A program made the position numbers and the translations under genes. A stretch of 64,000 nucleotides of DNA from an uncultured Pseudomonadota bacterium. Its GTDB lineage: Bacteria > Myxococcota_A > Bradymonadia > Bradymonadales > Bradymonadaceae. Positions 36,442 to 49,209 of the stretch are shown here, piece by piece. Numbering within the stretch: the stretch's first letter is position 1; each line of letters starts with the position of its first letter. Location: positions 62,001-126,000 of the forward strand of contig CAJXPB010000002.1 of assembly GCA_913057905.1 (NCBI GenBank), in the 5' to 3' direction. The notes beneath the pieces were generated by a model. It was not told where the DNA came from. It saw only the letters and a list, made by a program, of their open reading frames with translations, and searched no databases.

Positions 36442-36453
36442 CACGGATGTCAC
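36438..36453. terminator. perfect hairpin over convergent stop codons (possible terminator)
   Basis: GTGACA (36438-36443), a CGGA tetraloop and TGTCAC (36448-36453) form a perfect 6-bp stem spanning the stops of yjbQ (36441) and of the convergent lipoprotein gene (36450). CGGA is not a GNRA loop and no T-run follows, so termination efficiency is doubtful. Confidence 0.3.
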
Positions 36454-37346
36454 GGGCTCTGGCGAGCGATGACGACCTTGGCAGAGGGGGGACTTCCATA
36501 GGCGCACCATCCACCGGCGCCGGTCTCCAAGTTCGCCGGATCCGATACATAGTCGTTATTGTGACGCTGCGCGTAGACGTTCCAGAACTCATATGAGCCG
36601 CCCGCGGCCGGTATCTGCGCATTCGTTCCCATCTCAATAGTCACTGTGCTGTCTCCGGAAACAGTCAGCGGTTCCATTCGATGGACGCCCGGACAGTAGT
36701 AATAGGTCACACAGGTCGCAGTCTCCGGATCGGAGTAGTCGGCTTTCATCTCAATCTGCAGGGGCCCGATCTGCTCGGAATAGGAGGTGTCAGAGTAGTC
36801 CGGATCTCCTCGGTGGGGCTGTCCGACTTGCCCGACGTGCAGGAGAAGCCTCGACGACTGCTCGACGTTAACCTGTAGAGAACCGCGATCGTCGATAACG
36901 CGCAGTTTGGTGCCCTGCGAGGGAAGATCGAGTTTGGAAAGTGGCACCGGCACCGAGAGGTAGTAAATCTGGGACTGTCCCCCTTCTGAAACCTTGAGTT
37001 TCAATCCCTGATCGGTCTGACACACAAACCCCGCCGAATCCATGTGGCTCGGGCAATCCAGATCGGCCGCCGAGTCCAATGTTTCGATCCCGTGGAAGGT
37101 CGCCTCGAAGTCGAGGTCCTCTCCCACCTCCCGGTCGACGCCCTTCCACGCCCATCGGATGTTGTTGTTCGTCGATCTGTTCAACGGAAAGAACTCCGGA
37201 ATTTCGGCCTTGCAGTCATTTGGAACTACCTGGGCCGGGCCCGTCTCAGAGTCCGAGCCATCGGGCGTCGGCTCGCCGCCGACATCGCCGCATCCAGCCC
37301 CAATTAACATGAGTGCGATTGCCGTCGTGCCGAGCCAGCGTATCAT
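36450..37346 (-). CDS. hypothetical lipoprotein, 298 aa
   Basis: ATG 37346 (GGGG 5 nt upstream) begins a lipoprotein signal: MIRWLGTTAIALMLIGAGCG, lipidated Cys at about 19. The mature chain starts with a short acidic linker (TPDGSDSETGP) and is beta-rich with six or so Cys likely paired (DCKAE; LDCPSHMD; FVCQTDQ; TCVTYYYCPGVH; GWCAYGS). Segments such as STVTIEMGTNAQIPAAGGSY and SRLLLHVGQVGQ suggest beta-sandwich folds. No family is recognised. It is divergent from the first GT-C-like gene (115 bp between starts), so it could be controlled with that cluster. Confidence 0.65.
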   Translation of the reverse strand: MIRWLGTTAIALMLIGAGCGDVGGEPTPDGSDSETGPAQVVPNDCKAEIPEFFPLNRSTNNNIRWAWKGVDREVGEDLDFEATFHGIETLDSAADLDCPSHMDSAGFVCQTDQGLKLKVSEGGQSQIYYLSVPVPLSKLDLPSQGTKLRVIDDRGSLQVNVEQSSRLLLHVGQVGQPHRGDPDYSDTSYSEQIGPLQIEMKADYSDPETATCVTYYYCPGVHRMEPLTVSGDSTVTIEMGTNAQIPAAGGSYEFWNVYAQRHNNDYVSDPANLETGAGGWCAYGSPPSAKVVIARQSP

Positions 37347-37461
37347 CTCGTCCCCAGTGCGTTCGAAGCGCATGAAGTAGCGGGTGCACCTTCGAGAGTA
37401 GAGAATGCCAGACCGGGAATCAATCGAAGGAATTGCCCGCCCAGCGGGCCCATGATAAGCC

Positions 37462-39690
37462 GTGAAAACCACCATGGGAGATTTTCTCAAATCGCTGGAC
37501 CGCGCGAAGCTATACTGGACGGCCGCCGGACTCATTGGGTTCTTCTACACCCTCGGCTGCCTCCACGAAGTTGCCAACTACTGGCAGTGGGGACACAACG
37601 GCTACATCGGGTCGTCGTATATGCAGGCCGCCGTCAACTCGCTGCGGTTCGAGATCTTCGGTCAGGTGAAATTCCACACGGGGCTGGAGGCGCCTGGTGC
37701 CGAGGATATCTATACGCACCATCCGATGTTGATCCATCTGCATCTGGTGCCGCTGGTCTGGTTGGCCGGCCCCATTGAATGGCTCGGCCGACTCGTTCCG
37801 GCCATCTACAGCATCCTGAATCTCGGGATGCTCTTCATCCTGGTGCGACGCCACTACGGGGATGCCGTCGCGCTGATCGCCGCCGCCTCCTTTGCATTCC
37901 TGCCGATCAACCTGGTCTATGCCAACATGATCGGCCACGAGCAGGGAGGGATGTTCTGGTGCCTGGTGACGCTGTACACGTACACTCGCTGGGCCGAGAC
38001 CTACGAGCGGCGATATTTCATCGGCACGATGATCGCCATCACCCTGGCGGTCCAGTTCGAGTGGTTCGGCTATTATATCGCCCTGTTCACTGTCCTCCAT
38101 GCCTTCTATCAGGGTTTTCACCGCGCAGAAGAGATCGAATGGCGCCCGGAGTTTACCTTCGTCGTCGTCTTTTCGATCGTGGTGCTGGCCAATGCCGCCG
38201 CCTGGTTTGGCTACATCTACGTGGTGCGCGAGGGCTTCGGCGACATGTCGCAATCCTTCAGCGCGCGGACTTCGTCGCCGAAGGGCTACTGGACGGTCCT
38301 GTGGACCCAGCTCAAGAGTCTGTATGGCGTCCTGCCGATCAGCATCCTCATCGTCTGGCTGTTCGTTGCGACGATCCGCCTGGCCCGCTGGGATGTTCAC
38401 TACGGGGACCTGATCCCGATCTTTTTTCTGCTCGGTCAGGCAATCCGATCGTCGGTCTTTCAGCAGGCCGGCAAGGTTCACTACTTCTGGATATACTTCC
38501 TGGGGCCCGCCGTCGCCGTGGCCACCGGACATCTTCTCTGGTCGGCGGTCAAGACGGCTCGAACTCTCCTCGAGCGGTGGGAGGATTCGGAGGCGGCAGC
38601 CCGGGACCGGATCCCGTGGCCGCCAGACGCCGCGACGATCGTCTTGATCCTGGGACTGGTAGCAGCCCCGCTGGCGGTGCAGGCTCAATACGGCTACCGC
38701 CAGATGGAGCGCGGAGCCGCCGTCGCCGGAGCGATGAGCTACGAGACCTACGACGACCAATTCGACGACATCATGTGGGTCCAAAAGCTGACCCAGATCT
38801 ACGATCGCTCCGACACCGACTTTTTGATCCACTTCGACAACAAATACCGCATCGAGTGGTACTTTTATCTGGATGCCCCACACCGCAGGTGGCGCCGCCT
38901 CTCGTTCCCGGAGTCGCTCCGAGAGAAGGAGCGCAAACAGGTCCTGTTGGTCGACCTCAGGCAGGTCGAAGATCGCGCGCAGCTCAATCGGCTAGTGCAT
39001 CGCTACCGCACGACGATGTTCGACCGGACGTTTCTGGCCATCGAAGCGACCGAGCCAGGAGGATCCTTCGAAGCGTACGACCGCACCGAAGGTGAGCCGA
39101 GCTTTCTGTGGAAGTGGTTCGTCAACGGGCGTCGGCCGCCGGTCGAGTGGGTGCCCGATGATCGCTTCGCGGACCCCTCGCGGATGTTCCCCAAGACGCC
39201 CGATCTGAAACCAAACTTCGCGGTCGGTGGCTCGGGCGGTGAACCCACCAAATGGAACTGTCCGGTCGAGATGACCCTGCAGGGATTGAATATCGGTCTT
39301 CGGGACCCATCCTCGCCGAAGGTCGAATGGTTCGAGCCGATCTGCGTGCCCGGCGGCCCCTCTTCCAAGGATGAGGATCGCTACGTCGGCCCGGTGTTTG
39401 GTTTGAAGCCAGCCGGCAAAACGGGGCGCCAGAATCTGTGCCCGCCAGAGACATCGGCGGTCGGGTTACACGGGCGCGCCGGCCGATTTGTCGATGCTCT
39501 CGGGATCACCTGCCAGACCTCGGATGACGCCGAGACCAAACGCGAGATCATAGGTGGACCTGGCGGCGACTCGTTCTCTAAACGATGTCCCAGAGGAACT
39601 GTCGCCTGGGGGATCCGCGCACGAACCGGCAATTGGGTCGACGGTGCGGGCCTCGTCTGCCGTGAACTCGAGGAATTCACCGGTCGATGA
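37462..39690 (+). CDS. GT-C membrane glycosyltransferase-like protein with lectin-like tail (protein A)
   Basis: The 742-aa protein (GTG 37462; ATG 37474 is equally possible) has about ten membrane helices over residues 15-410. The first outer loop carries EDIYTHHPMLIHLHLVPL, and ARLVPAIYSILN-like GRLVPAIYSILNLGMLFILV follows, a pattern of GT39/GT83-type (PMT/ArnT-like) enzymes that use polyprenyl-linked sugars. A periplasmic region follows. Residues about 583-742 hold three repeats with Cys pairs: GGSGGEPTKWNCP, GLHGRAGRFVDALGITC, and GGPGGDSFSKRCPRG with GNWVDGAGLVC. The tail is shared with proteins B to D although the membrane domain differs. Its stop overlaps the start of B (ATGA). Confidence 0.8.
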   Translation: MKTTMGDFLKSLDRAKLYWTAAGLIGFFYTLGCLHEVANYWQWGHNGYIGSSYMQAAVNSLRFEIFGQVKFHTGLEAPGAEDIYTHHPMLIHLHLVPLVWLAGPIEWLGRLVPAIYSILNLGMLFILVRRHYGDAVALIAAASFAFLPINLVYANMIGHEQGGMFWCLVTLYTYTRWAETYERRYFIGTMIAITLAVQFEWFGYYIALFTVLHAFYQGFHRAEEIEWRPEFTFVVVFSIVVLANAAAWFGYIYVVREGFGDMSQSFSARTSSPKGYWTVLWTQLKSLYGVLPISILIVWLFVATIRLARWDVHYGDLIPIFFLLGQAIRSSVFQQAGKVHYFWIYFLGPAVAVATGHLLWSAVKTARTLLERWEDSEAAARDRIPWPPDAATIVLILGLVAAPLAVQAQYGYRQMERGAAVAGAMSYETYDDQFDDIMWVQKLTQIYDRSDTDFLIHFDNKYRIEWYFYLDAPHRRWRRLSFPESLREKERKQVLLVDLRQVEDRAQLNRLVHRYRTTMFDRTFLAIEATEPGGSFEAYDRTEGEPSFLWKWFVNGRRPPVEWVPDDRFADPSRMFPKTPDLKPNFAVGGSGGEPTKWNCPVEMTLQGLNIGLRDPSSPKVEWFEPICVPGGPSSKDEDRYVGPVFGLKPAGKTGRQNLCPPETSAVGLHGRAGRFVDALGITCQTSDDAETKREIIGGPGGDSFSKRCPRGTVAWGIRARTGNWVDGAGLVCRELEEFTGR

Positions 39691-41759
39691 ACGATCTGAC
39701 CGAGAGATTCAGTCGTGAGGATTTGGCCTTCTGGGGCGCCCTCGCTGCGTCCCTGACGGTGCTTATCTGGCCGGTCTGGATGGGCCCGATCTTTCCGGCC
39801 TGGGACTGGGGCGGCCACCTGGCGATGGCCGACGCCTGGGCCCGACTCGAAGAGGTCGAGCTCTACGGTCAGATCTACGAACGCCGCTCGGGGATCGTCC
39901 CCAACATCCTGTCGGCGCGGTTCGTCGGGTGGATGTATCCGCTGTTGGACCCGCTGGCGGCCCTGCGACTCTTCACCAGTCTGGTCATGCTCTCCACGGT
40001 CGCCGCTCTGTTGGCGGTGGCGCGGACTTTCGACCGATCCCGCTGGCTCGTCTTTTTGTGCCTGCCCTTTCTGTGGAACGGGTCATTTTACTTTGGAATG
40101 ATCAACTACGTGGCCGTCTTCCCCCTTTTGTTTGCCGGCGTGGCGCTGTCGGCTCGGACGGCGGAGACGGGCGAGTGGCGCTACGCCGTCGGGCTGGGTT
40201 CGGTGGTGACGGCGAGCTTCTTCGTCCACGGGCTCGGCTGCCTCTTTACGGTCGCCTCGGGCGGGCTGATCTATATACTTTCGCTTCGACGCCCACGGCG
40301 GGTCTGGGGCCTGTTGCTCTTTGCGCCGGCGATCGCTCTGTGGATGTACTGGCGAGCAAACATCGACGGACAGGGACTGCCATCTTCTGGGATCATCGAA
40401 ACCCTGCAAAACGCAGCCTGGTTCGGTCCCGTCTGGATCCTCGAGCGCGCCTACAAACACTCCCTGGACGTCACCTCGCTGCCGTTTGAATCATGGGTCC
40501 TCGGCGGACTCGGCCTGGCCTGGGTGATGGCCGCGGTGGCCGCACTGCAAGTCGACTCACCGTCGACTGAAGACGACTCTCCTGGTTTCTTCTACGAGTA
40601 TCGCCTGCACCTGCTGGCCTTCGCCCTGGTGCTCGCTGTGTTTGCAACCCCAGGATACATTCAGCACACAAACATCAACACCCGGTTCGTGCCGCTGGCC
40701 CTCTGGGCGTTGGCGCTGGTTCCCCGAGCCCCCACCCGGCATCTCTTGACCCGGTGCACGGCGGGGTTGGCGATCGTCGTGAGCCTCTCCTTTGGCGTAC
40801 ACCTCGTTCAGAACGTCGAGCGGCTACACCGCCAGGAGTTCGACTCGCTAGTCGAGTTGATCGACCAGATTCCTCCGCAGAGTACCGTCGACTGCATGCA
40901 GGTCGGCTACGGGACAAACCCGGTCTTTCGGGGACGCGCTCTCCAGCACAACTGCCCCGGCCTTTTGCATGTGCGCCGGGACTCCTACGGGGAGTTCGGC
41001 TTTCCCGACACCGCTTTCAACCCGATCACCTTTCGACGCAAAGACTTTCCGATTCGAAGCTCCCTGGGCGGGTGGCACGATCTGGGTGGGCTCCAGACCT
41101 TCGGCTACCTGATCATCCGCGGCGACCACCACCCTCCGCCGACAACGGTCACCCGTCGCGCCGCCCGCGCTGGCGGCCGACCCGACCCAGATTTGGAGCC
41201 CGGTCGGACCCATACGACGGAATGGACCCTCTACAGAGTACTGAACCAGGAATTCGATGCGACGCATCGTGAGGTGTCCGGCGGCCCTGGGGGACACCCG
41301 TTTCAGTGGACCTGCCCGGAAGGCGCGTCCTTGGACGGTTTCTCAGGGCGTATCGACGCCAACGAGACCGTCACCAGCCTTCGGCCAACCTGCCAGGCAT
41401 CCGAAGACGGCCGAAACGCAACGCGGGGGCCTCAAATCGGAGCCACCGGGGGCGCGCATCGACGGATATCTGCCCGATGCCCGGACGGCAGCGTCGCAGT
41501 CGGACTCGAGGGTCGGGCCGGGAGGTTCGTCGACCAACTGAACCTGCTGTGCGCGCCTATCGAGACGGCCACCGAAACGGGCGCTCCTCGATGGAGCGAA
41601 TCGAAGCTCGAGACCATCGAGGGCGGTGGTGGCACCGGCGGCGAACCGTTCCGGATCACCTGCCCGACCGACAGCGCAGCAGCGGCTCTGACGGGACGAA
41701 ACGGCGCGCGGATTGACGCCGTCGGCGTGGCATGCCGGGCGTTGACCTCATCTCGGTAA
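39687..41759 (+). CDS. GT-C-like polytopic membrane protein with lectin-like tail (protein B)
   Basis: The 690-aa protein starts at ATG 39687, overlapping the stop of protein A by 4 nt. It has about ten membrane helices. The first outer loop has DWGGHLAMADAWARLEEVEL, where the Asp/Glu could play the acid role typical of GT-C enzymes, followed by GIVPNILSARFVGWMYPL and PFLWNGSFYFGMINY. These motifs recur in proteins C and D, so B-D are paralogs. Residues about 340-525 form a periplasmic domain. Residues 530-690 hold three repeats: GGPGGHPFQWTCPEG, GLEGRAGRFVDQLNLLC, and TGGEPFRITCP ending GARIDAVGVAC. Its 3' end overlaps that of the convergent gene by 12 bp. Confidence 0.78.
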   Translation: MNDLTERFSREDLAFWGALAASLTVLIWPVWMGPIFPAWDWGGHLAMADAWARLEEVELYGQIYERRSGIVPNILSARFVGWMYPLLDPLAALRLFTSLVMLSTVAALLAVARTFDRSRWLVFLCLPFLWNGSFYFGMINYVAVFPLLFAGVALSARTAETGEWRYAVGLGSVVTASFFVHGLGCLFTVASGGLIYILSLRRPRRVWGLLLFAPAIALWMYWRANIDGQGLPSSGIIETLQNAAWFGPVWILERAYKHSLDVTSLPFESWVLGGLGLAWVMAAVAALQVDSPSTEDDSPGFFYEYRLHLLAFALVLAVFATPGYIQHTNINTRFVPLALWALALVPRAPTRHLLTRCTAGLAIVVSLSFGVHLVQNVERLHRQEFDSLVELIDQIPPQSTVDCMQVGYGTNPVFRGRALQHNCPGLLHVRRDSYGEFGFPDTAFNPITFRRKDFPIRSSLGGWHDLGGLQTFGYLIIRGDHHPPPTTVTRRAARAGGRPDPDLEPGRTHTTEWTLYRVLNQEFDATHREVSGGPGGHPFQWTCPEGASLDGFSGRIDANETVTSLRPTCQASEDGRNATRGPQIGATGGAHRRISARCPDGSVAVGLEGRAGRFVDQLNLLCAPIETATETGAPRWSESKLETIEGGGGTGGEPFRITCPTDSAAAALTGRNGARIDAVGVACRALTSSR

Positions 41760-43358
41760 CTTCGCTTCTTCGCGCACGAAGAATTCACCGAGTTCCTTGA
41801 AGTCGGCGACCCGCTTTTCGTCCCAGTCCGAGCCTACCGCACGGATGCCGGCCACACCGACCAGAAACGTCGTCGCGCAGACGAACGCGACGCCGATCCT
41901 TCGGAGTCGGAATCGGTGGTGTCGGATGAGACCACGGCCCACGACGATCCCCGCGACAACGCCGACCAGCACAGCCAATGGGAGCAGGGTGATGACACCG
42001 GAGAGATCGGTGTAGTGGGTCAGCCAATTCGGGGCGACCAACCCGTTGTTCCACATGACCGCAAGCGCCTCCATCAGGGGATTTTGGGAGTCCGCAGGCA
42101 GCTCCGGGAAGAGGGCTCCGACAAGTTGGTGGCCCAGAAGCCCGAGAAGCACCAAGCCCCTGGCCAATCCCGAGGCAAACCACCGACGAAGACACCAGGC
42201 CAGCCCGGCCGCCGTCGGGATCATGGCCACGCCCATCATCGCCACCAGATGCCGGGGGCCGTATCCCCATCCGCCCTCCCACAGCGGCCACGAGGCGATG
42301 AATGCGATGTAGTAGAGGACGATTGCACCGGATGTGACGCACAACGCGCGCCGCCCACGCCGCCAAAGAAGCCACAGTCCCGGGATGATGAGTACAAAGA
42401 ACGGTGAGGTGCCAAGCCAGCCGCGATGGAGGCTGAAGACGCCACCTAAAAACCACTCCAAGTGGGGCCATTTCAACCCGCCAAGTCCCGAAGTGTGGAC
42501 CTCGTCGAAATTCTCGTTGACCAGATGGAAGTACGGCAGCTCGAGCGGACCACCGAAGGCCACCGAATGATAGACAAATAACCCGACGGCGAAGGGGAGC
42601 GCCCCGGCGGCGAAGGCCGCCAGACTCCCGACGTCGCGTCGAATCAGCACCGTTGTGGCGTACATCGCGATCATGATGCACGGGATCGCGGCCGGATACT
42701 CCGTCATCCCGGCGACGCCGGCTGCCATCCCGCCGCCAAAGGCGACAGCCCGCGCGGCCCACTTCCCGCCAGAGCTCAACCGCTTCTGACAGCGCACCAA
42801 TCCGACGAACGCGCCCAGCAGGCCGACGGCCACGATTTGATGTCCGAAGAAGGCATTGCTGTAGTGGAAGGCCGACGATCCCAGAATCCAGGCCAGCGAC
42901 GCCACGTCTACGGCCGGCGGATCGAGGCCGATATCCCGCAACACCATGCGAAGAAGGAGAAACCCTGCCACGCCGATCGGCAGCATCAGCCAAAAACGCA
43001 TCAGATCGAGCAGTTCGCTCTTGGTCCACGCATCGGCGGCTGACGCCAGCCGTGCTGCCCCGTAGACGACAGCTCCAAGAAGACCGGCGCCGGGAGCCTT
43101 GTCGCTTCGGTGCGACCCCTTCACCTTCGCAACATCGAGAATGCCGCCGTAGGTCTCTATGGGTTTGTCGATGGCAACAGTCCCATGATCGACCAGCGCC
43201 ACGCTCAAATAGATCCGCGAGCGTTCATTCGGCGCACTCGCCCGACGAAACATCCATGAGTAGCCGAGGGTCAAGGCGACAAGCAGACACAGCAGCGCCT
43301 CGCGGCCCCACCACCAGCGCCCGGAGGTCGTGCTCGTGTTGTCGGCGGTCTGTCCCAT
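41748..43358 (-). CDS. polytopic membrane glycosyltransferase-like protein (GT39-like)
   Basis: The 536-aa protein (ATG 43358 behind GAGG; an in-frame ATG at 43403 is the alternative) has about twelve membrane helices. The first outer loop has NERSRIYLSVALVDHGTVAI and then GSHRSDKAPGAGLLGAVVYG. The SDKAPG motif is common in bacterial GT39-like polytopic glycosyltransferases. Further motifs are GMTEYPAAIPCIMIAMY and GWGYGPRHLVAMM, the latter with an Arg-His in a late outer loop. It has no lectin-like tail. It lies between B and C on the opposite strand and is divergent from C by about 95 bp. Donor and acceptor are unknown. Confidence 0.78.
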   Translation of the reverse strand: MGQTADNTSTTSGRWWWGREALLCLLVALTLGYSWMFRRASAPNERSRIYLSVALVDHGTVAIDKPIETYGGILDVAKVKGSHRSDKAPGAGLLGAVVYGAARLASAADAWTKSELLDLMRFWLMLPIGVAGFLLLRMVLRDIGLDPPAVDVASLAWILGSSAFHYSNAFFGHQIVAVGLLGAFVGLVRCQKRLSSGGKWAARAVAFGGGMAAGVAGMTEYPAAIPCIMIAMYATTVLIRRDVGSLAAFAAGALPFAVGLFVYHSVAFGGPLELPYFHLVNENFDEVHTSGLGGLKWPHLEWFLGGVFSLHRGWLGTSPFFVLIIPGLWLLWRRGRRALCVTSGAIVLYYIAFIASWPLWEGGWGYGPRHLVAMMGVAMIPTAAGLAWCLRRWFASGLARGLVLLGLLGHQLVGALFPELPADSQNPLMEALAVMWNNGLVAPNWLTHYTDLSGVITLLPLAVLVGVVAGIVVGRGLIRHHRFRLRRIGVAFVCATTFLVGVAGIRAVGSDWDEKRVADFKELGEFFVREEAKLPR

Positions 43359-43452
43359 AAACCTCACGATGAATGTTGCGGGATCCGCAGCGCGTCGTAC
43401 CATACTTTGCCGTCAGATCGAGCCTTTCACGTGTGTTTTAGACCAAACCGCG

Positions 43453-45525
43453 ATGACATCCTCCCTGCGTTCGTTTCTCTCCAATCTGCGCACTTCCAGC
43501 CTACGGGCCGTCGCGTTCTGGGGGCTGCTCATTGTAGCCACGGGGTTTTTGATCTGGCCCGTTTGGGTCGGACCGATGCCTCCGATGACCGACATCGGTG
43601 GGCATGTAGCCAACGCCGACATCTGGGCGCGCTACGATGAGGTCGAGCTGTATCGAGAGATGTTCGTGCTGCGCACGGGAATCTCGCCGAACACACTTTC
43701 GGCCCGGTTCGTAAGCTGGTTGTACCCCCTGGTCGACATCATCACCGGGATCCGGCTGTATATCACGCTGATGATGCTCGCCACGGTGGCCGCGTTCATC
43801 GGTGTCACCCACGCATTCGGACGTTCCCGTTGGGCTGTCTTCTTGGCGGTCCCGTTTCTTTGGAACACCGGCATGCACTGGGGCATGGTCAATTTCGTCG
43901 CCTTCTTCCCCTTCTTTTTCGCGGCCATCATCTTTGCTCGCCATGCGGGGGAATCCGGCGAATGGAGATGGGGCCTGGCGCTGGGAGTCACGACCGCGGT
44001 CAGCTTTTTCGCCCATGGGCTCGGACCGCCGCTGGCGGTCGGTGCCGCTACCTTCGTGCTCGTGTGTTCGCTGACGCGACCTGCGCATCTCATCCACCTG
44101 ATCACCATGCTGCCGGCCGTCGTCATCTGGTTTTGGTGGAAGGCCGGTGCATCTGGAAAGCACGGGGTCCCTGGCGATAGCCTTTGGGAGATGCTTACCG
44201 AACACTCGACGTGGCATCCGCCGCTCAAGAAGATCGAAGTCCTGGTCGAGCATGCCTTCAATGCCACAACGACCAACGTCGAATATTTCATTCTGGCCGG
44301 GCTGATTGGGCTGTTCATCCTCGCGATGACCATTTCAAAACCCGCCCCACAACAGGAAGGGTCCCGGGCACGAAGACACACCCTCCTGTGGACCGTCCTT
44401 TGCCTCTGGATCGCCGTCTGGGTCTTTCCCTCTTACTACGGCTACACCAACATCGCGACGCGCGTCTGCGCGGCGTTTTTGATGGCCGCCGCACTCCTGC
44501 CGAGACTGGATAGAAAAGCCCCATTGACCTACGTCATCGCCGTGGCCAGCGTGTCGATCTGTGTCGGTTTTGGTCTATTTGTGGGGCAAACCTTCGAGCA
44601 GTTTCAGCGTCAGAATCTTCGGCCGATCGACCGACTCTCCAGCCACGTTGAACCGCAGTCCCGGGTCGAGTGTTTCGGGCTTCCCGGCTACATGAACTCA
44701 AGGATCATCGTCTCTCCCCTTCGAAACAACTGCGTCGGCCTCGTTCAAGTCAGGACGGGGAGCTTCGGCGGCACCTCCTTTGCGCACAATCCATTCAATC
44801 CAGTTGGGTTCCGTCGGGGGTACGAATACAAGGGCATCGAGAATCATGGGCTCGACAATATCGGCTATCTTCAGATGTGGGACTACCTGTTGACCGACGG
44901 TCCGTATCCCAAGCCCCCGACGGATCTGACCAACCTAGTCGCCACCGAAACGAGCCCGGGAGACGAGGCGCCTGTCTGGAACCTCTACCGAGTCGAGTCC
45001 TTCGAAACAGACTGGACGCACAAGGCGACGACCGATGCGAAGAGTGGGGCGCCGTTCACGTGGAGGTGTCCGACGGGTCACGCGCTGGCGGGTTACCGGG
45101 GCCGACACACGGGCGGCGGAGCCGTCTCGAGTCTTCGACCGGTCTGCCGACCATTGAAGGCGGCCGACAACGGAAATGGCCCAACCGTTGGCCCAAGGAT
45201 CGGTAAAGTCGGGTCCGCAGAGAAGACGTTTGCCCACATGTGCCCACAAGGGACCCACACCGTCGGCTTGGAAGTTGCGGCCGACAGCCCCGTCCGAGAC
45301 CTCGCCATCCGATGTGCGCCGGTCTCCGATTCGGGGTGGTCCGAGGCCGACAGTCAGCTTGTCGGTGAGGTCGACGCTACCAAGTCCAACGCGACGCGAA
45401 CGGCGTTTAGTTGCCCCCCCGACAGCGTCGTCACGGGCGCGATCGGCCGAAACGGCATGCACGTCGACGCGCTCGGTATCGGCTGCGAATCGATCCGTTC
45501 AGTCACCGAAGGACAACAGAACTGA
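43453..45525 (+). CDS. GT-C-like polytopic membrane protein with lectin-like tail (protein C)
   Basis: The 690-aa paralog of B starts at ATG 43453. The N-terminal core aligns closely with B and D: MTDIGGHVANADIWARYDEV, GISPNTLSARFVSWLYPL, FGRSRWAVFLAVPFLWNTG, HWGMVNFVAFFPFFFA, SFFAHGLGPPLAV. A periplasmic domain with RVECFGLPGYMNSR and NNCVGLVQVRTGSFGG follows the last membrane helix. Residues 527-690 contain three tail repeats: SGAPFTWRCPTGHALAGYRG, EKTFAHMCPQGTHTVGLEV, and TAFSCPPDSVVTGAIGRNG with MHVDALGIGC. Its stop overlaps the start of D by 1 nt (TGATG), so C and D are coupled. Confidence 0.78.
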   Translation: MTSSLRSFLSNLRTSSLRAVAFWGLLIVATGFLIWPVWVGPMPPMTDIGGHVANADIWARYDEVELYREMFVLRTGISPNTLSARFVSWLYPLVDIITGIRLYITLMMLATVAAFIGVTHAFGRSRWAVFLAVPFLWNTGMHWGMVNFVAFFPFFFAAIIFARHAGESGEWRWGLALGVTTAVSFFAHGLGPPLAVGAATFVLVCSLTRPAHLIHLITMLPAVVIWFWWKAGASGKHGVPGDSLWEMLTEHSTWHPPLKKIEVLVEHAFNATTTNVEYFILAGLIGLFILAMTISKPAPQQEGSRARRHTLLWTVLCLWIAVWVFPSYYGYTNIATRVCAAFLMAAALLPRLDRKAPLTYVIAVASVSICVGFGLFVGQTFEQFQRQNLRPIDRLSSHVEPQSRVECFGLPGYMNSRIIVSPLRNNCVGLVQVRTGSFGGTSFAHNPFNPVGFRRGYEYKGIENHGLDNIGYLQMWDYLLTDGPYPKPPTDLTNLVATETSPGDEAPVWNLYRVESFETDWTHKATTDAKSGAPFTWRCPTGHALAGYRGRHTGGGAVSSLRPVCRPLKAADNGNGPTVGPRIGKVGSAEKTFAHMCPQGTHTVGLEVAADSPVRDLAIRCAPVSDSGWSEADSQLVGEVDATKSNATRTAFSCPPDSVVTGAIGRNGMHVDALGIGCESIRSVTEGQQN

Positions 45526-47687
45526 TGAGCAGCGCGCTTCGCCACAAAGAGTCATTCTTTTGGATCCTGCTCGCCGTCGCGGCGGGCAGCCTGATCCTTC
45601 CGATCTGGATCGGCCCGATCCCGCCGATGCCCGATGTCGGGGCGCATGTCGCCAACGCCGACGTCTGGGCGAAGTTCGATCGAGTCGAGCTGTACAACCG
45701 GATGTTCGAGCTTCGCACCGGGCTCATTCCAAATACACTGTCGGCACGGTTCGCGAGTCTCTTGCACCCGATGTTTTCGACCATCGCCGGCATCCGACTC
45801 TACATGACCCTGGCGCTTGTCGGGACGGTCGCCGGACTCATCGCGACCGCCCGGACCTTTGGGCGCTCGAAATGGGTGGTCTTTCTGGCCCTTCCGTTTT
45901 TGTGGAACACGGCGCTCCACTCGGGGATGGTCAACTTCATGGCCCTCTACCCGTTTTTCTTTGCGTCGCTCGCTTTGGCCGGCATGGCCGCGAGGACCGG
46001 GGACTGGGAATGGGGAGTCGCCCTCGGCGCGACGACGGTCGCGAGTTTCTTCGCGCACGGACTTGGCCCGCCGCTGTGCGCATCGGTTGCTGCGCTGGTC
46101 ATCGTCGTTTCGGTCCGCCGTCCCAGGCATCTGGGTCAACTCGCGAGTCTGGCTCCCGCCTCCTTGCTGTGGTTTTACTGGAAAGCCGGCGCCCAGGGGA
46201 GCTACGGAGTCCCGGGGAAAGGCATCCCGGATATGTTGGTCAATCACAGTCGTTACCAACCCCCTCTGGAGAAGGTCCGTCGACTGGTCGACCACGGATT
46301 CAATGCAACCACGTCACCCGTCGAAGTCTACATCTTCGCCGGGATCGTGGGCCTGTTCATCCTCTGGATGGGCATCTCGAAGTCGGATGCCGACGACAGG
46401 CACACTCTGGTCTGGGTGACCCTCGCCCTCTGGGCTGGATTCTGGGTGCTCCCTTCGTATTACGCCCACACCAACATCGCCACACGCGTCGGAGCGATGT
46501 TCTTCCTGACGGCCGCGCTTCTTCCACGTCCCGACGAGGACGACATTCTCAGCGGAGCCGCGGCGGCTCTGTGCGTACTCACGTCGATCGGCTTTGGCAT
46601 CTACGTGACCGACACGGTCGATGAGTTTCACGACAGGCACCTGAGGCCCGTCGCCGAGCTCTCCGAACACATCGAACCCCAGTCGCGCGTCGATTGTTTT
46701 GCCCTCCCCGGCTACAACCAAACGAGCATCCGGGCTATCCCCCTTAGACACAATTGTCCCGGCTTAATTCAAGCCGCAACGTCGAGCTTTGGCGGGAACC
46801 ATTTTCCCAGATATCCCTTCAACCCCGTCGGATTCCGGGATGGCTACGACTACGAACCGATCGACGAGCACGGGCTCGACGACATCGGGCATCTGCAGAT
46901 GTGGGACTACTTGGTCACCGACGAGTCGCATCCTCGCCCCGACCGGGAGCTCGCCGAGCTGGTCACGACCGTCGAGGGTCGAGGCGACGAGGCACCGGAA
47001 TGGCATCTCTACCGGGTCAGGAAATTCGAGCGGCAGTGGTCTGCCCGTGAAGTCGGGAGCGAAACAGGCGGGGCCGCTTACACATGGAGTTGTCCGAAGG
47101 GCCACGCCTTGGCCGGCTACCGCGGCCGACGCACGAACAAAGGTGTTGTCTCAAACCTCACACCGGTCTGCCGAGAGGTCCAACCGGGTGTAGTCCCTGG
47201 TATTGGCGCGAACTCTAGCCGCCCGCGACCGAATCTGCCCGCGGTGCCCGATCCAACCCGGATTCTTACGCCGGAGCCGCTTTTGCCGAACCCAAAACCG
47301 GTGCAACCACCCCGGGTGCAGGGTGCTCGGATGAGCGGACCGATGATCGGGCATCTAGGGGCAGGGGAGAGCGGATTCGAAGCAGTCTGCCCGGAAGGGG
47401 AGTTCATGGTCGGTCTGGTGGGAGTTCGCGGCGACCTCGTGCGCGACCTCGCTGTGCGCTGTTCCGGCGTGAAGACGACGGTCGATCGCAAGACGGGGCG
47501 CACGCTCTTTACGTGGTTGCCGGCCGAGAGTCACCGTGTCGGCTCCGTAACGGCCGAGGGTGAGAAATTCTCGTGGAGCTGCCCCCACGACAGCGTCGTG
47601 ACCGGAGCACTGGGACGCAACGGACAGCACATCGACGCGGTGGGGATTGGCTGCCAGCGGGCCGACGAGCTCACGGAGATGCCGTAG
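45525..47687 (+). CDS. GT-C-like polytopic membrane protein with lectin-like tail (protein D)
   Basis: The 720-aa protein starts at ATG 45525 within the TGATG overlap. It is the closest relative of C: MPDVGAHVANADVWAKFDRV, GLIPNTLSARFASLLHPMF, PFLWNTALHSGMVNFMALYP, FFAHGLGPPLC and, in the periplasmic part, HGLDDIGHLQMWDYLVTDE. The tail starts at about residue 512 with AAYTWSCPKGHALAGYRG, followed by a Pro-rich linker of about 50 residues not seen in B or C, then GFEAVCPEGEFMVGLVGVRG and KFSWSCPHDSVVTGALGRNG with HIDAVGIGC. Conserved Cys pairs in each repeat suggest disulfides in the periplasm. It converges on the GT22-like gene with 7 bp between stops. Confidence 0.78.
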   Translation: MSSALRHKESFFWILLAVAAGSLILPIWIGPIPPMPDVGAHVANADVWAKFDRVELYNRMFELRTGLIPNTLSARFASLLHPMFSTIAGIRLYMTLALVGTVAGLIATARTFGRSKWVVFLALPFLWNTALHSGMVNFMALYPFFFASLALAGMAARTGDWEWGVALGATTVASFFAHGLGPPLCASVAALVIVVSVRRPRHLGQLASLAPASLLWFYWKAGAQGSYGVPGKGIPDMLVNHSRYQPPLEKVRRLVDHGFNATTSPVEVYIFAGIVGLFILWMGISKSDADDRHTLVWVTLALWAGFWVLPSYYAHTNIATRVGAMFFLTAALLPRPDEDDILSGAAAALCVLTSIGFGIYVTDTVDEFHDRHLRPVAELSEHIEPQSRVDCFALPGYNQTSIRAIPLRHNCPGLIQAATSSFGGNHFPRYPFNPVGFRDGYDYEPIDEHGLDDIGHLQMWDYLVTDESHPRPDRELAELVTTVEGRGDEAPEWHLYRVRKFERQWSAREVGSETGGAAYTWSCPKGHALAGYRGRRTNKGVVSNLTPVCREVQPGVVPGIGANSSRPRPNLPAVPDPTRILTPEPLLPNPKPVQPPRVQGARMSGPMIGHLGAGESGFEAVCPEGEFMVGLVGVRGDLVRDLAVRCSGVKTTVDRKTGRTLFTWLPAESHRVGSVTAEGEKFSWSCPHDSVVTGALGRNGQHIDAVGIGCQRADELTEMP

Positions 47688-47694
47688 GGCAAGT

Positions 47695-49125
47695 TCAGTC
47701 GCAGCCCCCGGACCTCATATAGACGCACGTCTTCCCAAAACACCGTTTTCGGTCGAAACCGGCGTGGTGCTCACGCTCAAAGTCATCGACCACGAATGCA
47801 TTGAAACGGGGAGCATCCTGAGGAATCGCGTCGGGATGTGGCATGTGCTGAATCTCGACATCGTGATGAAGGTAGCTGTAGCCGCCCGTCGCGATCTGTC
47901 TAAACCCTACGCGCGCCACTGCGCAGACATCCCGTCTGCTCAGGTATCGGTAGGCCAGAAGTTTATCTTGAGCCATCGTCCAGTTGGGGGCCTCGTGGAC
48001 CTGGCCGTCCGGCCCCAGCCTGAAGTTAAGCCCTCCGACGACCGATGCCGTACACCAGCAAGCCAGGAGTACGGACAGCGTCACGAGCCGTGCTCGCCGA
48101 AAGCGAATCTTCATTCCAACGTACTTGGCGAGAGCCGCCGCCTCGAGCCCTACGATCATCGAGGAGAGGGCAACGACCGGATAGGCAAACCGATACTCCT
48201 TGTGCGGGATCGCACAGTGTGCGGCCAGAATGGCCAACGCCGGGCCCGCCAGCATCGGATAGCGGACAATCCCCGTCAGCAGTGCGACCCCCATCGCCAC
48301 CGACCCAGCCGGTGAGACATCCCACGCCCACGCGAAATACTGCCACCACGGGAAGGTACCCCACTGGCTGGCTTTTCCCTCAATGACGTTTGTGTGGAGG
48401 TTCACGATGAGCGAATGGAATGGAACCCCGTACGCGACTACATCGACCAATCCAGCGATGCCAGCTCCGGCCACAACGCCCGTCGCAAGCGCTGAAATGG
48501 AGACGTGGGGACGCCGAGCGTACATCGGTATCCATGCGGCCAGAACAATTGGAACGGGCGCAAGATGGGGGCGTGTGATGACGCAGATTCCAAGGACGAG
48601 CCCGCCACAGAAAGCGCGGAGCCAGCGCCCATCATCAAATCGCACCAGGAAAATCGCCGCCGCGACAAGGTGGATCGTGAAGGTTTCAAAGAGGCTCTTC
48701 GGCCCGAAATAGATGTTCTCGAACCAGAGGAGGGGAAAGAGCATCGCCACGACCGGCAACCAACCGCCGCCCCACTTCCGGCGAGCCCAAAGATAGGTCA
48801 CCGCCGGGGGAATGAGCGATATGAACGACAGAAAAAGGGTCGTCGCGGCGAGGTAGCCCGTAGACCCGTCGCCGAAGAACTGCCCAACCCACATCACACC
48901 GGCAAGCATTCCGGGGAAGACCCATGAACGCAGGCCCTCGGAGTACTCCCACATCTGACTTCCGTACCCGAAGGCCAGCCGATGGGCGGGCTCGAGGGTC
49001 TGATAGATCTCGTCGGGCCAATACATACTCGGGGAAAAGTGCTCGATGCCCGCTCGGACCAGCAGGCCCCCGACCAAAAGGAGCGATCCCACCACCCACA
49101 GTCGATTCGTTTCGGACGAGTTCAT
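47695..49125 (-). CDS. GT22-like (Alg9/PIG-B type) membrane mannosyltransferase
   Basis: The 476-aa protein (ATG 49125) has about ten membrane helices. The first outer loop reads PSMYWPDEIYQTLEPAHRLA and then QMWEYSEGLRSWVFPG, matching the HPDE.YQ.lE.AH....G...WE...g.RS..FP pattern of eukaryotic GPI and N-glycan mannosyltransferases (GT22). A later HKEYRFAYPVVAL matches the HKE.RF.yP motif of the same family. Asp and Glu of PDE are the likely catalytic acids. Known family members transfer mannose from polyprenyl-phosphate mannose. The C-terminal 120 residues are periplasmic with several Cys (VCAVAR; KRCFGKTCVYM; GGCD). Bacterial members exist but are poorly studied. Confidence 0.83.
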   Translation of the reverse strand: MNSSETNRLWVVGSLLLVGGLLVRAGIEHFSPSMYWPDEIYQTLEPAHRLAFGYGSQMWEYSEGLRSWVFPGMLAGVMWVGQFFGDGSTGYLAATTLFLSFISLIPPAVTYLWARRKWGGGWLPVVAMLFPLLWFENIYFGPKSLFETFTIHLVAAAIFLVRFDDGRWLRAFCGGLVLGICVITRPHLAPVPIVLAAWIPMYARRPHVSISALATGVVAGAGIAGLVDVVAYGVPFHSLIVNLHTNVIEGKASQWGTFPWWQYFAWAWDVSPAGSVAMGVALLTGIVRYPMLAGPALAILAAHCAIPHKEYRFAYPVVALSSMIVGLEAAALAKYVGMKIRFRRARLVTLSVLLACWCTASVVGGLNFRLGPDGQVHEAPNWTMAQDKLLAYRYLSRRDVCAVARVGFRQIATGGYSYLHHDVEIQHMPHPDAIPQDAPRFNAFVVDDFEREHHAGFDRKRCFGKTCVYMRSGGCD

Positions 49126-49209
49126 AGAACCAAATCTTTCAAAAGACCGAGTAAATCGGGGATGAATCGACAGACGGGCATCTAAACCCATCGTCGATCG
49201 GCATGCAAA

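Follow-up and report, generated by a model that had tools for sequence, protein, structure and literature searches.

The locus described here raises the question of what four large membrane proteins with a common C-terminal tail do side by side in the genome of a Bradymonadales bacterium, and what the tail contributes. The window, that is the whole stretch of 64,000 nucleotides analysed, is part of a 4.25 Mb assembly, most likely from the class Bradymonadia (Myxococcota). A preliminary description had presented the four genes, A to D, as an array of GT-C-like membrane proteins with a triple-repeat, lectin-like tail that act on a surface glycan.

Genes and layout of the locus

37462..39690, + strand: A, 742 aa, PMT_2 (GT-C) group; multi-span membrane protein whose C-terminal tail is a predicted beta-prism (ORF, Pfam)
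39199..39687, + strand: tail of A, predicted single beta-prism domain with three Cys-pair repeats
39687..41759, + strand: B, tail-bearing 690 aa member of the B/C/D family of membrane proteins
41259..41756, + strand: tail of B, three-fold beta-prism in an AlphaFold model
41748..43403, - strand: E, 551 aa membrane protein, putative glycosyltransferase of LA_3751 type, tail-less (NCBIfam, below cut-off)
43453..45525, + strand: C, tail-bearing paralog of B and D (BLASTP)
45013..45522, + strand: tail of C
45525..47687, + strand: D, tail-bearing paralog of B and C
47043..47684, + strand: tail of D
47695..49191, - strand: F, 498 aa GT22 Alg9-type mannosyltransferase (GT-C), tail-less, convergent with D (Pfam)

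The frames of A to D are all open over these coordinates and encode multi-span proteins, which agrees with their description as large membrane proteins. The likely start codons of C and D are ATG 43453 and ATG 45525, which corrects the earlier positions. The stop of A and the start of B overlap (ATGA), as do the stop of C and the start of D (TGATG), an arrangement that suggests coupled translation within each pair. The four genes are on the plus strand, but they do not form an uninterrupted array; the minus-strand gene E sits between B and C, and neither E nor F, which follows D, had been mentioned before. E is weakly similar to the LA_3751 family of putative glycosyltransferases (NCBIfam NF047440, E 1.3e-5, below cut-off) and has no match in Pfam, and F matches Pfam Glyco_transf_22 with an E-value of 5.5e-31. 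Altogether, 11.7 kb holds six glycosyltransferase or glycosyltransferase-like membrane genes.

Divergent from A there is a probable lipoprotein gene (36450-37535, - strand). It has an internal start at MIRWLGTTAIALMLIGAGCGD, and read at full length its ORF runs into the start of A. A tRNA-Thr was called by ARAGORN inside the coding sequence of B (41071-41162, - strand). Rfam found no tRNA when the whole window was searched, and the call is probably a false positive.

The tail and its predicted sugar site

Three repeats of about 50 residues, each with its Cys pair, were found in every tail of A to D (12 of 12 repeats). This part of the earlier motif was recovered throughout, but the full GR.G..VD.LG form is present only in some of the repeats, namely repeats 2 and 3 of A (repeat 3 as ARTGNWVDGAG), repeats 2 and 3 of B, and repeat 3 of C and of D. 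Across 34 tails, each of the six Cys columns is conserved in 33 or in all 34, and the pairs presumably form disulfides.

A five-row profile of the tail, compared with all PDB sequences, matched jacalin-type lectins only, some of them jacalin domains entered under the names of dirigent or stress proteins, and the best match was the Parkia lectin 1zgr (4.1e-8). Protein A alone matched the same lectin (E 9.5e-8), and in the Parkia match the repeat aligns with GRAGYYLDALG, a segment of the binding loop. Of the five tail models made with AlphaFold, only one was confident; the tail of B (pLDDT 76.4, pTM 0.74) was modelled with eleven strands in a three-fold pattern, and a separate full-length run gave the same tail fold. 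Searched against PDB with Foldseek, the tail model matched BanLec, WGA16, the champedak lectin, ZG16 and artocarpin (E 4e-7 to 2e-5). The Pfam Jacalin model (PF01419) scored A, B and D at only 12-14 bits against a cut-off of 22, and C was not listed, but three relatives are above the cut-off: L059 (36.4 bits), an AftB-type membrane protein where the match (8.6e-9) extends over most of the model, and the secreted proteins L025 (23.2 bits) and L061 (23.1 bits). Jacalin, named earlier as the prime candidate, is thus supported by the profile match to solved lectins, by AlphaFold and Foldseek, and by Pfam in three relatives. By sequence profile and model, the tail is predicted to be one jacalin-related beta-prism I lectin domain, which implies that the three copies of the motif are the three Greek keys of a single domain.

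Two other candidate families for the tail were rejected. Dermatopontin gave weak Pfam matches only. Vitelline membrane outer layer protein I (VOMI, PF03762) is a beta-prism of three-fold repeats with disulfides, and this likeness is a lead only, with weak and not significant Pfam matches (E 0.11) in two relatives. In the tail of D (47043-47684) a long, Pro-rich linker separates repeat 1 from repeat 2, and the tails of L017 and L045 have long insertions between the prism repeats; in L017, repeat 3 is preceded by a tandem repeat of DDQGKAA.

In ZG16p and the mannose-type jacalin lectins, the sugar (mannose in ZG16p) is held by a GG loop together with a GXXXD motif near the C terminus (PMC4059138). 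By topology, the corresponding lectin site of the tails would consist of GG in repeat 1 and GXXXD in repeat 3. Across three catalytic families, GG is found in repeat 1 of 31 of 33 tails, and GXXXD in repeat 3 of 32 of 34, its Asp being present in all 34. Elsewhere GXXXD is found in repeat 2 of 9 and in repeat 1 of only 1 of the 34 tails. Since the fold and the Cys pairs are common to the repeats and the GXXXD site is not, repeats 1 and 2 function as an internal control. The first site is complete in A (GG loop, GNWVD), B (GGPGG, and GARID at G673-D677) and D (GG, GQHID). C has only the GXXXD (GMHVD), its repeat 1 being without the GG loop (DAKSGAP), and the repeat-2 site is also lost. A and B have a GXXXD also in repeat 2 and a GG in repeat 3, which by their sequence may form a possible second sugar site. 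From these residues we infer that the tails bind sugar, and the GG loop and Asp677 of B make up a predicted site that can be tested.

Membrane parts and distribution of the tail

Protein A matches Pfam PMT_2 (PF13231) with 29.4 bits, the cut-off being 26.1, in an alignment that spans residues 87-227 only, and the model is matched by 6 of 6 aligned A-family members (best E 2.5e-14). This membership suggests, by homology, that A is almost certainly a GT-C enzyme. The juxtamembrane site, read by eye from its position after TM1, is WQWGHNG in A and its relatives, with His-Asn where an acidic pair is expected, and GHEG in one of the relatives; the first juxtamembrane helix of A has no acid at its tip. 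The A family therefore agrees with the PMT_2 GT-Cs in matching the model but differs from them by HNG in place of the acidic pair and by the tail. Its relatives are present in 50 of 379 genomes. The membrane part of A has no match to B, C and D; its tail matches theirs with E-values from 1e-10 to 1e-19.

It was also possible to observe recurring neighbours of A-type genes. In three genomes (G070, G206 and G250) the A-type gene is directly followed by a GT2 gene (Pfam E 1e-27 to 4e-32), and the gene ends abut or overlap. The best solved relatives of the GT2 in the G070 copy are sll0501, ArnC and dolichol-phosphate mannose synthase, and these GT2 proteins appear, by sequence, to be polyprenyl-phosphate-sugar-synthase-like. 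A tail-bearing PMT_2 gene adjoins a gene of the B/C/D family in four loci, the window, L045, L098 and L101.

That B, C and D are paralogs, as first described, was confirmed by end-to-end alignment (BLASTP E 1e-133 or lower), with identities of 36% for B and C, 34% for B and D, and 50% for C and D, the last over 716 aligned columns. B, C and D each contain the motifs NxLSARF and PFLWN, but GGH.A.AD.WA is exact only in B and C, and D reads GAHVANADVWA in its place. The proteins have 7-10 predicted spans plus the soluble tail, which should lie on the extracytoplasmic side of the membrane. TM1 is followed by a loop of about 55 residues that starts with a conserved acid, D40 in B, and also contains His44. 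The acid is Asp or Glu in 15 of the 18 proteins of the family alignment. Two members of the family, L104 and L106, have Asn at this position and are possibly, judged by this residue, inactive or differently acting paralogs.

The GT-C assignment, proposed earlier for all four proteins, is supported for A by a PMT_2 match above the Pfam cut-off but not for B, C and D, where no Pfam or NCBIfam family model matched and the membrane model is weak. No GT-C model matched the other members of the 18-row alignment either. Full-length AlphaFold, run on an alignment of four sequences, gave a mean pLDDT of 46.6, with the membrane part mostly below 50, and predicted structure was at this confidence dropped as an argument for the GT-C fold, except for the positions of two helices. 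With the full-length model, Foldseek listed only matches to the tail and none to the membrane part. A low-confidence model of a B-family protein has helices at 39-54 and 74-83 in the loop after TM1, and GT-C enzymes carry juxtamembrane helices in the matching region. Comparison of the B/C/D and AftB families with hhalign gave 52% probability in a ragged alignment, and this match vanished once mis-started rows were trimmed, the cleaned alignment giving 2-12%; matches to other GT-C families likewise disappeared on cleaning, and profile-profile comparison was rejected as proof. The AftB-like and PMT_2 profiles, both accepted as GT-C, do not match each other either. The acid loop after TM1, the spans, the neighbouring accepted GT-C genes and the common tail suggest that B, C and D probably have the GT-C fold. 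A profile search of genome contigs with the B/C/D alignment found only one relative, in the Bradymonadaceae MAG LUM.15, and relatives of the B family are present in 76 of 284 genomes.

A fifth tail-bearing membrane protein is encoded in the same genome (L011 5679-8132). The tail-bearing multi-span proteins of Myxococcota fall into three families, F1 (B, C and D), F2 (L011) and F3 (A), and there is no BLAST match between families. The F2 profile matches AftB (9dlf) over nearly its full length with an E-value of 6.1e-112. F2 has a DD motif, with SDDGFI invariant in six members, and in AftB the Asp of the DD motif is catalytic (PMC12041299). That F2 consists of AftB homologs, and so of GT-C enzymes, is well established by homology. 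The homology to AftB stops before the tail, which implies that the beta-prism was added on. The 57 genomes of the class yielded 5 AftB homologs, all of them tail-bearing. Tail-less homologs exist for F1, with one in the same genome (L049, hhalign 100%, E 1e-39), and for F3. Judged by the length of their open frames, the best-scoring F1 and F3 matches are tail-bearing and most of the weaker ones tail-less. The tail is a modular addition, and in a tree the tails cluster by catalytic family (8 changes as compared to 12.6 when shuffled), with the deep branches unresolved.

The tail profile has matches in 121 of 379 genomes of the phylum. The tail is also found on secreted non-membrane proteins (L020, L022, L025, L052, L057 and L061), which implies that it is not specific to transferases. 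MopE-type copper-binding motifs are present in L025, L052, L057 and L061. There are also small secreted proteins that end in a single copy of the repeat (L010 682-1632, and frames of about 260-300 aa in many Myxococcota genomes); they match the tail query at positions about 118-163, and their lone beta-prism unit would have to oligomerise or pair. Plasmids gave no match to tail-bearing or tail-less homologs, and phages gave none to the tail.

Proposed function and known systems

Genes for a lipid-linked sugar donor were found in the same genome:

L120 6010-8221 (G000:C4): DprE1 and a DprE2-like SDR
L122 5228-6208 (G000:C3): DPPR synthase (decaprenyl-phosphate phosphoribosyltransferase)

DprE1 matches 4aut with an E-value of 3e-87, the next-best other oxidase being at 5e-17, and the adjoining SDR is, from its position and type, likely to be DprE2. 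DPPR synthase matches 8j8j with an E-value of 1e-38. These three make polyprenyl-phospho-arabinofuranose a plausible donor for the AftB homolog. In the class, DPPR synthase is present in 45, DprE1 in 36 and the AftB homolog in 5 of 57 genomes; co-occurrence was rejected as an argument, since the pathway genes are common with or without the AftB homolog and the association is not specific. Near DPPR synthase there is also a GT-C-like protein (L122 7878-9404), weakly similar to the MptA/MptB alpha-1,6-mannosyltransferases (NCBIfam 1.5e-6 and 4e-4, below cut-off).

On balance, we favour the explanation that A to D are GT-C transferases whose beta-prism tails bind the acceptor or the growing envelope glycan near the active site. 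The tails are lectin-like and at least one of the four proteins belongs to a known sugar-transferase family, which suggests that the tails probably hold the glycan under construction at the outside of the inner membrane. A to D would sit in the inner membrane as GT-C glycosyltransferases and, at its outer face, transfer sugars carried on polyprenyl phosphate to a glycan of the envelope. The C-terminal domain, held by its three Cys pairs, would be located in the periplasm. A single site of the mannose-lectin type, to which repeat 1 contributes the GG loop and repeat 3 the GXXXD, would bind the acceptor or the glycan as it grows. By analogy with the modules of EmbC, AftD and GT136, the tail may keep the glycan near the active site. 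Several results speak against this explanation: the missing GT-C model match of B, C and D, the His-Asn of A, the lost GG loop of C, Jacalin scores under the cut-off in the window, a single confident tail model, a GT136 module that was dispensable for activity, and tails on secreted proteins.

Another explanation can be that B, C and D handle the glycan without being GT-C enzymes, for example as a polymerase, ligase or flippase partner, with a tail that recognises the glycan, and that A and the AftB homolog do the transfer. The lack of a GT-C model match in B, C, D and their 18-row alignment, and a membrane fold not modelled with confidence, agree with this, and their genes adjoin GT-C genes as those of partners would. 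We nevertheless consider it rather unlikely, as the loop of about 55 residues has its acid (15 of 18) and His44, the low-confidence helices at 39-54 and 74-83 resemble GT-C juxtamembrane helices, and the tail is common to two accepted GT-C families. It is also conceivable, but improbable, that the tail is a structural or protein-binding beta-prism that binds no sugar. Secreted proteins with MopE motifs also carry the domain, and small secreted proteins a single repeat of it, and the tail-less homologs of A and B imply that it is dispensable in evolution; the lectin-site residues are however kept in 31 of 33 and 32 of 34 tails, while the equivalent positions in the other repeats drift. The His-Asn in place of the acids after TM1 in A, and the loss of the GG loop and the repeat-2 site in C, could even be taken as signs that A to D are decaying or inactive paralogs, duplicated without a common glycan function. 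This is very hard to reconcile with open frames, overlapping starts, Cys residues kept in 33 or 34 of 34 tails, a conserved site, and relatives of the A family in 50 of 379 genomes and of the B family in 76 of 284.

A further and more doubtful suggestion is that one beta-prism module, attached to three extracytoplasmic glycosyltransferase families unrelated in sequence, recruits them to one shared, undescribed Myxococcota envelope glycan. The lipid-linked donors of the families would differ, polyprenyl-phospho-arabinofuranose being among them, and the tails would be the address for the common acceptor.

The preliminary description knew of no system with this architecture, which was too broad a statement: EmbC, AftD and GT136 are GT-Cs with C-terminal carbohydrate-binding modules (PMC3044687, PMC11127046). 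The module of EmbC binds the acceptor and its mutation reduces LAM extension (PMC3044687), and the module of GT136 (Citrobacter youngae ORF12) binds unmodified O-antigen and was dispensable for activity under the conditions tested (PMC11127046). The mycobacterial arabinosyltransferases EmbA/B/C and AftD have the order proposed for A to D, with the GT-C membrane domain first and then a sugar-binding module in the periplasm, but their modules have lectin-like CBM folds. No sequence match was found between A to D and the Emb proteins. GT136 is likewise a GT-C with a C-terminal carbohydrate-binding domain but differs by its Ig-like module and its catalytic family, and its locus has three components, with a donor synthase and a MATE flippase. 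Neither an Ig-like nor a lectin-like CBM fold was found at the C terminus of A to D, which have a predicted beta-prism instead. AftB (GT89, 9dlf) is homologous to L011 5679-8132 and five relatives, a family distinct from A to D.

Jacalin-type beta-prism lectins are mostly known as free lectins of plants, animals and algae. The tails share the predicted beta-prism I, the three-fold symmetry and the first-site GG and GXXXD with the jacalin-related lectins (PF01419; BanLec, artocarpin, ZG16p, Parkia lectin), but differ from them by three clear Cys-pair repeats and by being carried on bacterial polytopic membrane proteins. In the open-licence papers searched we found neither a beta-prism module on a GT-C nor one module across three GT-C-like families. 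A GT-C with a C-terminal carbohydrate-binding module is known as a class; a beta-prism in this role, and its use by three families, appear to be new. The results point to an uncharacterised Myxococcota envelope glycan, with an arabinose pathway of the AftB/DprE1 type outside Actinobacteria, and isolated tails could serve as probes for identifying this glycan. A beta-prism in bacterial membrane glycosyltransferases, where EmbC and GT136 carry other modules, would be an independent solution to the same problem.
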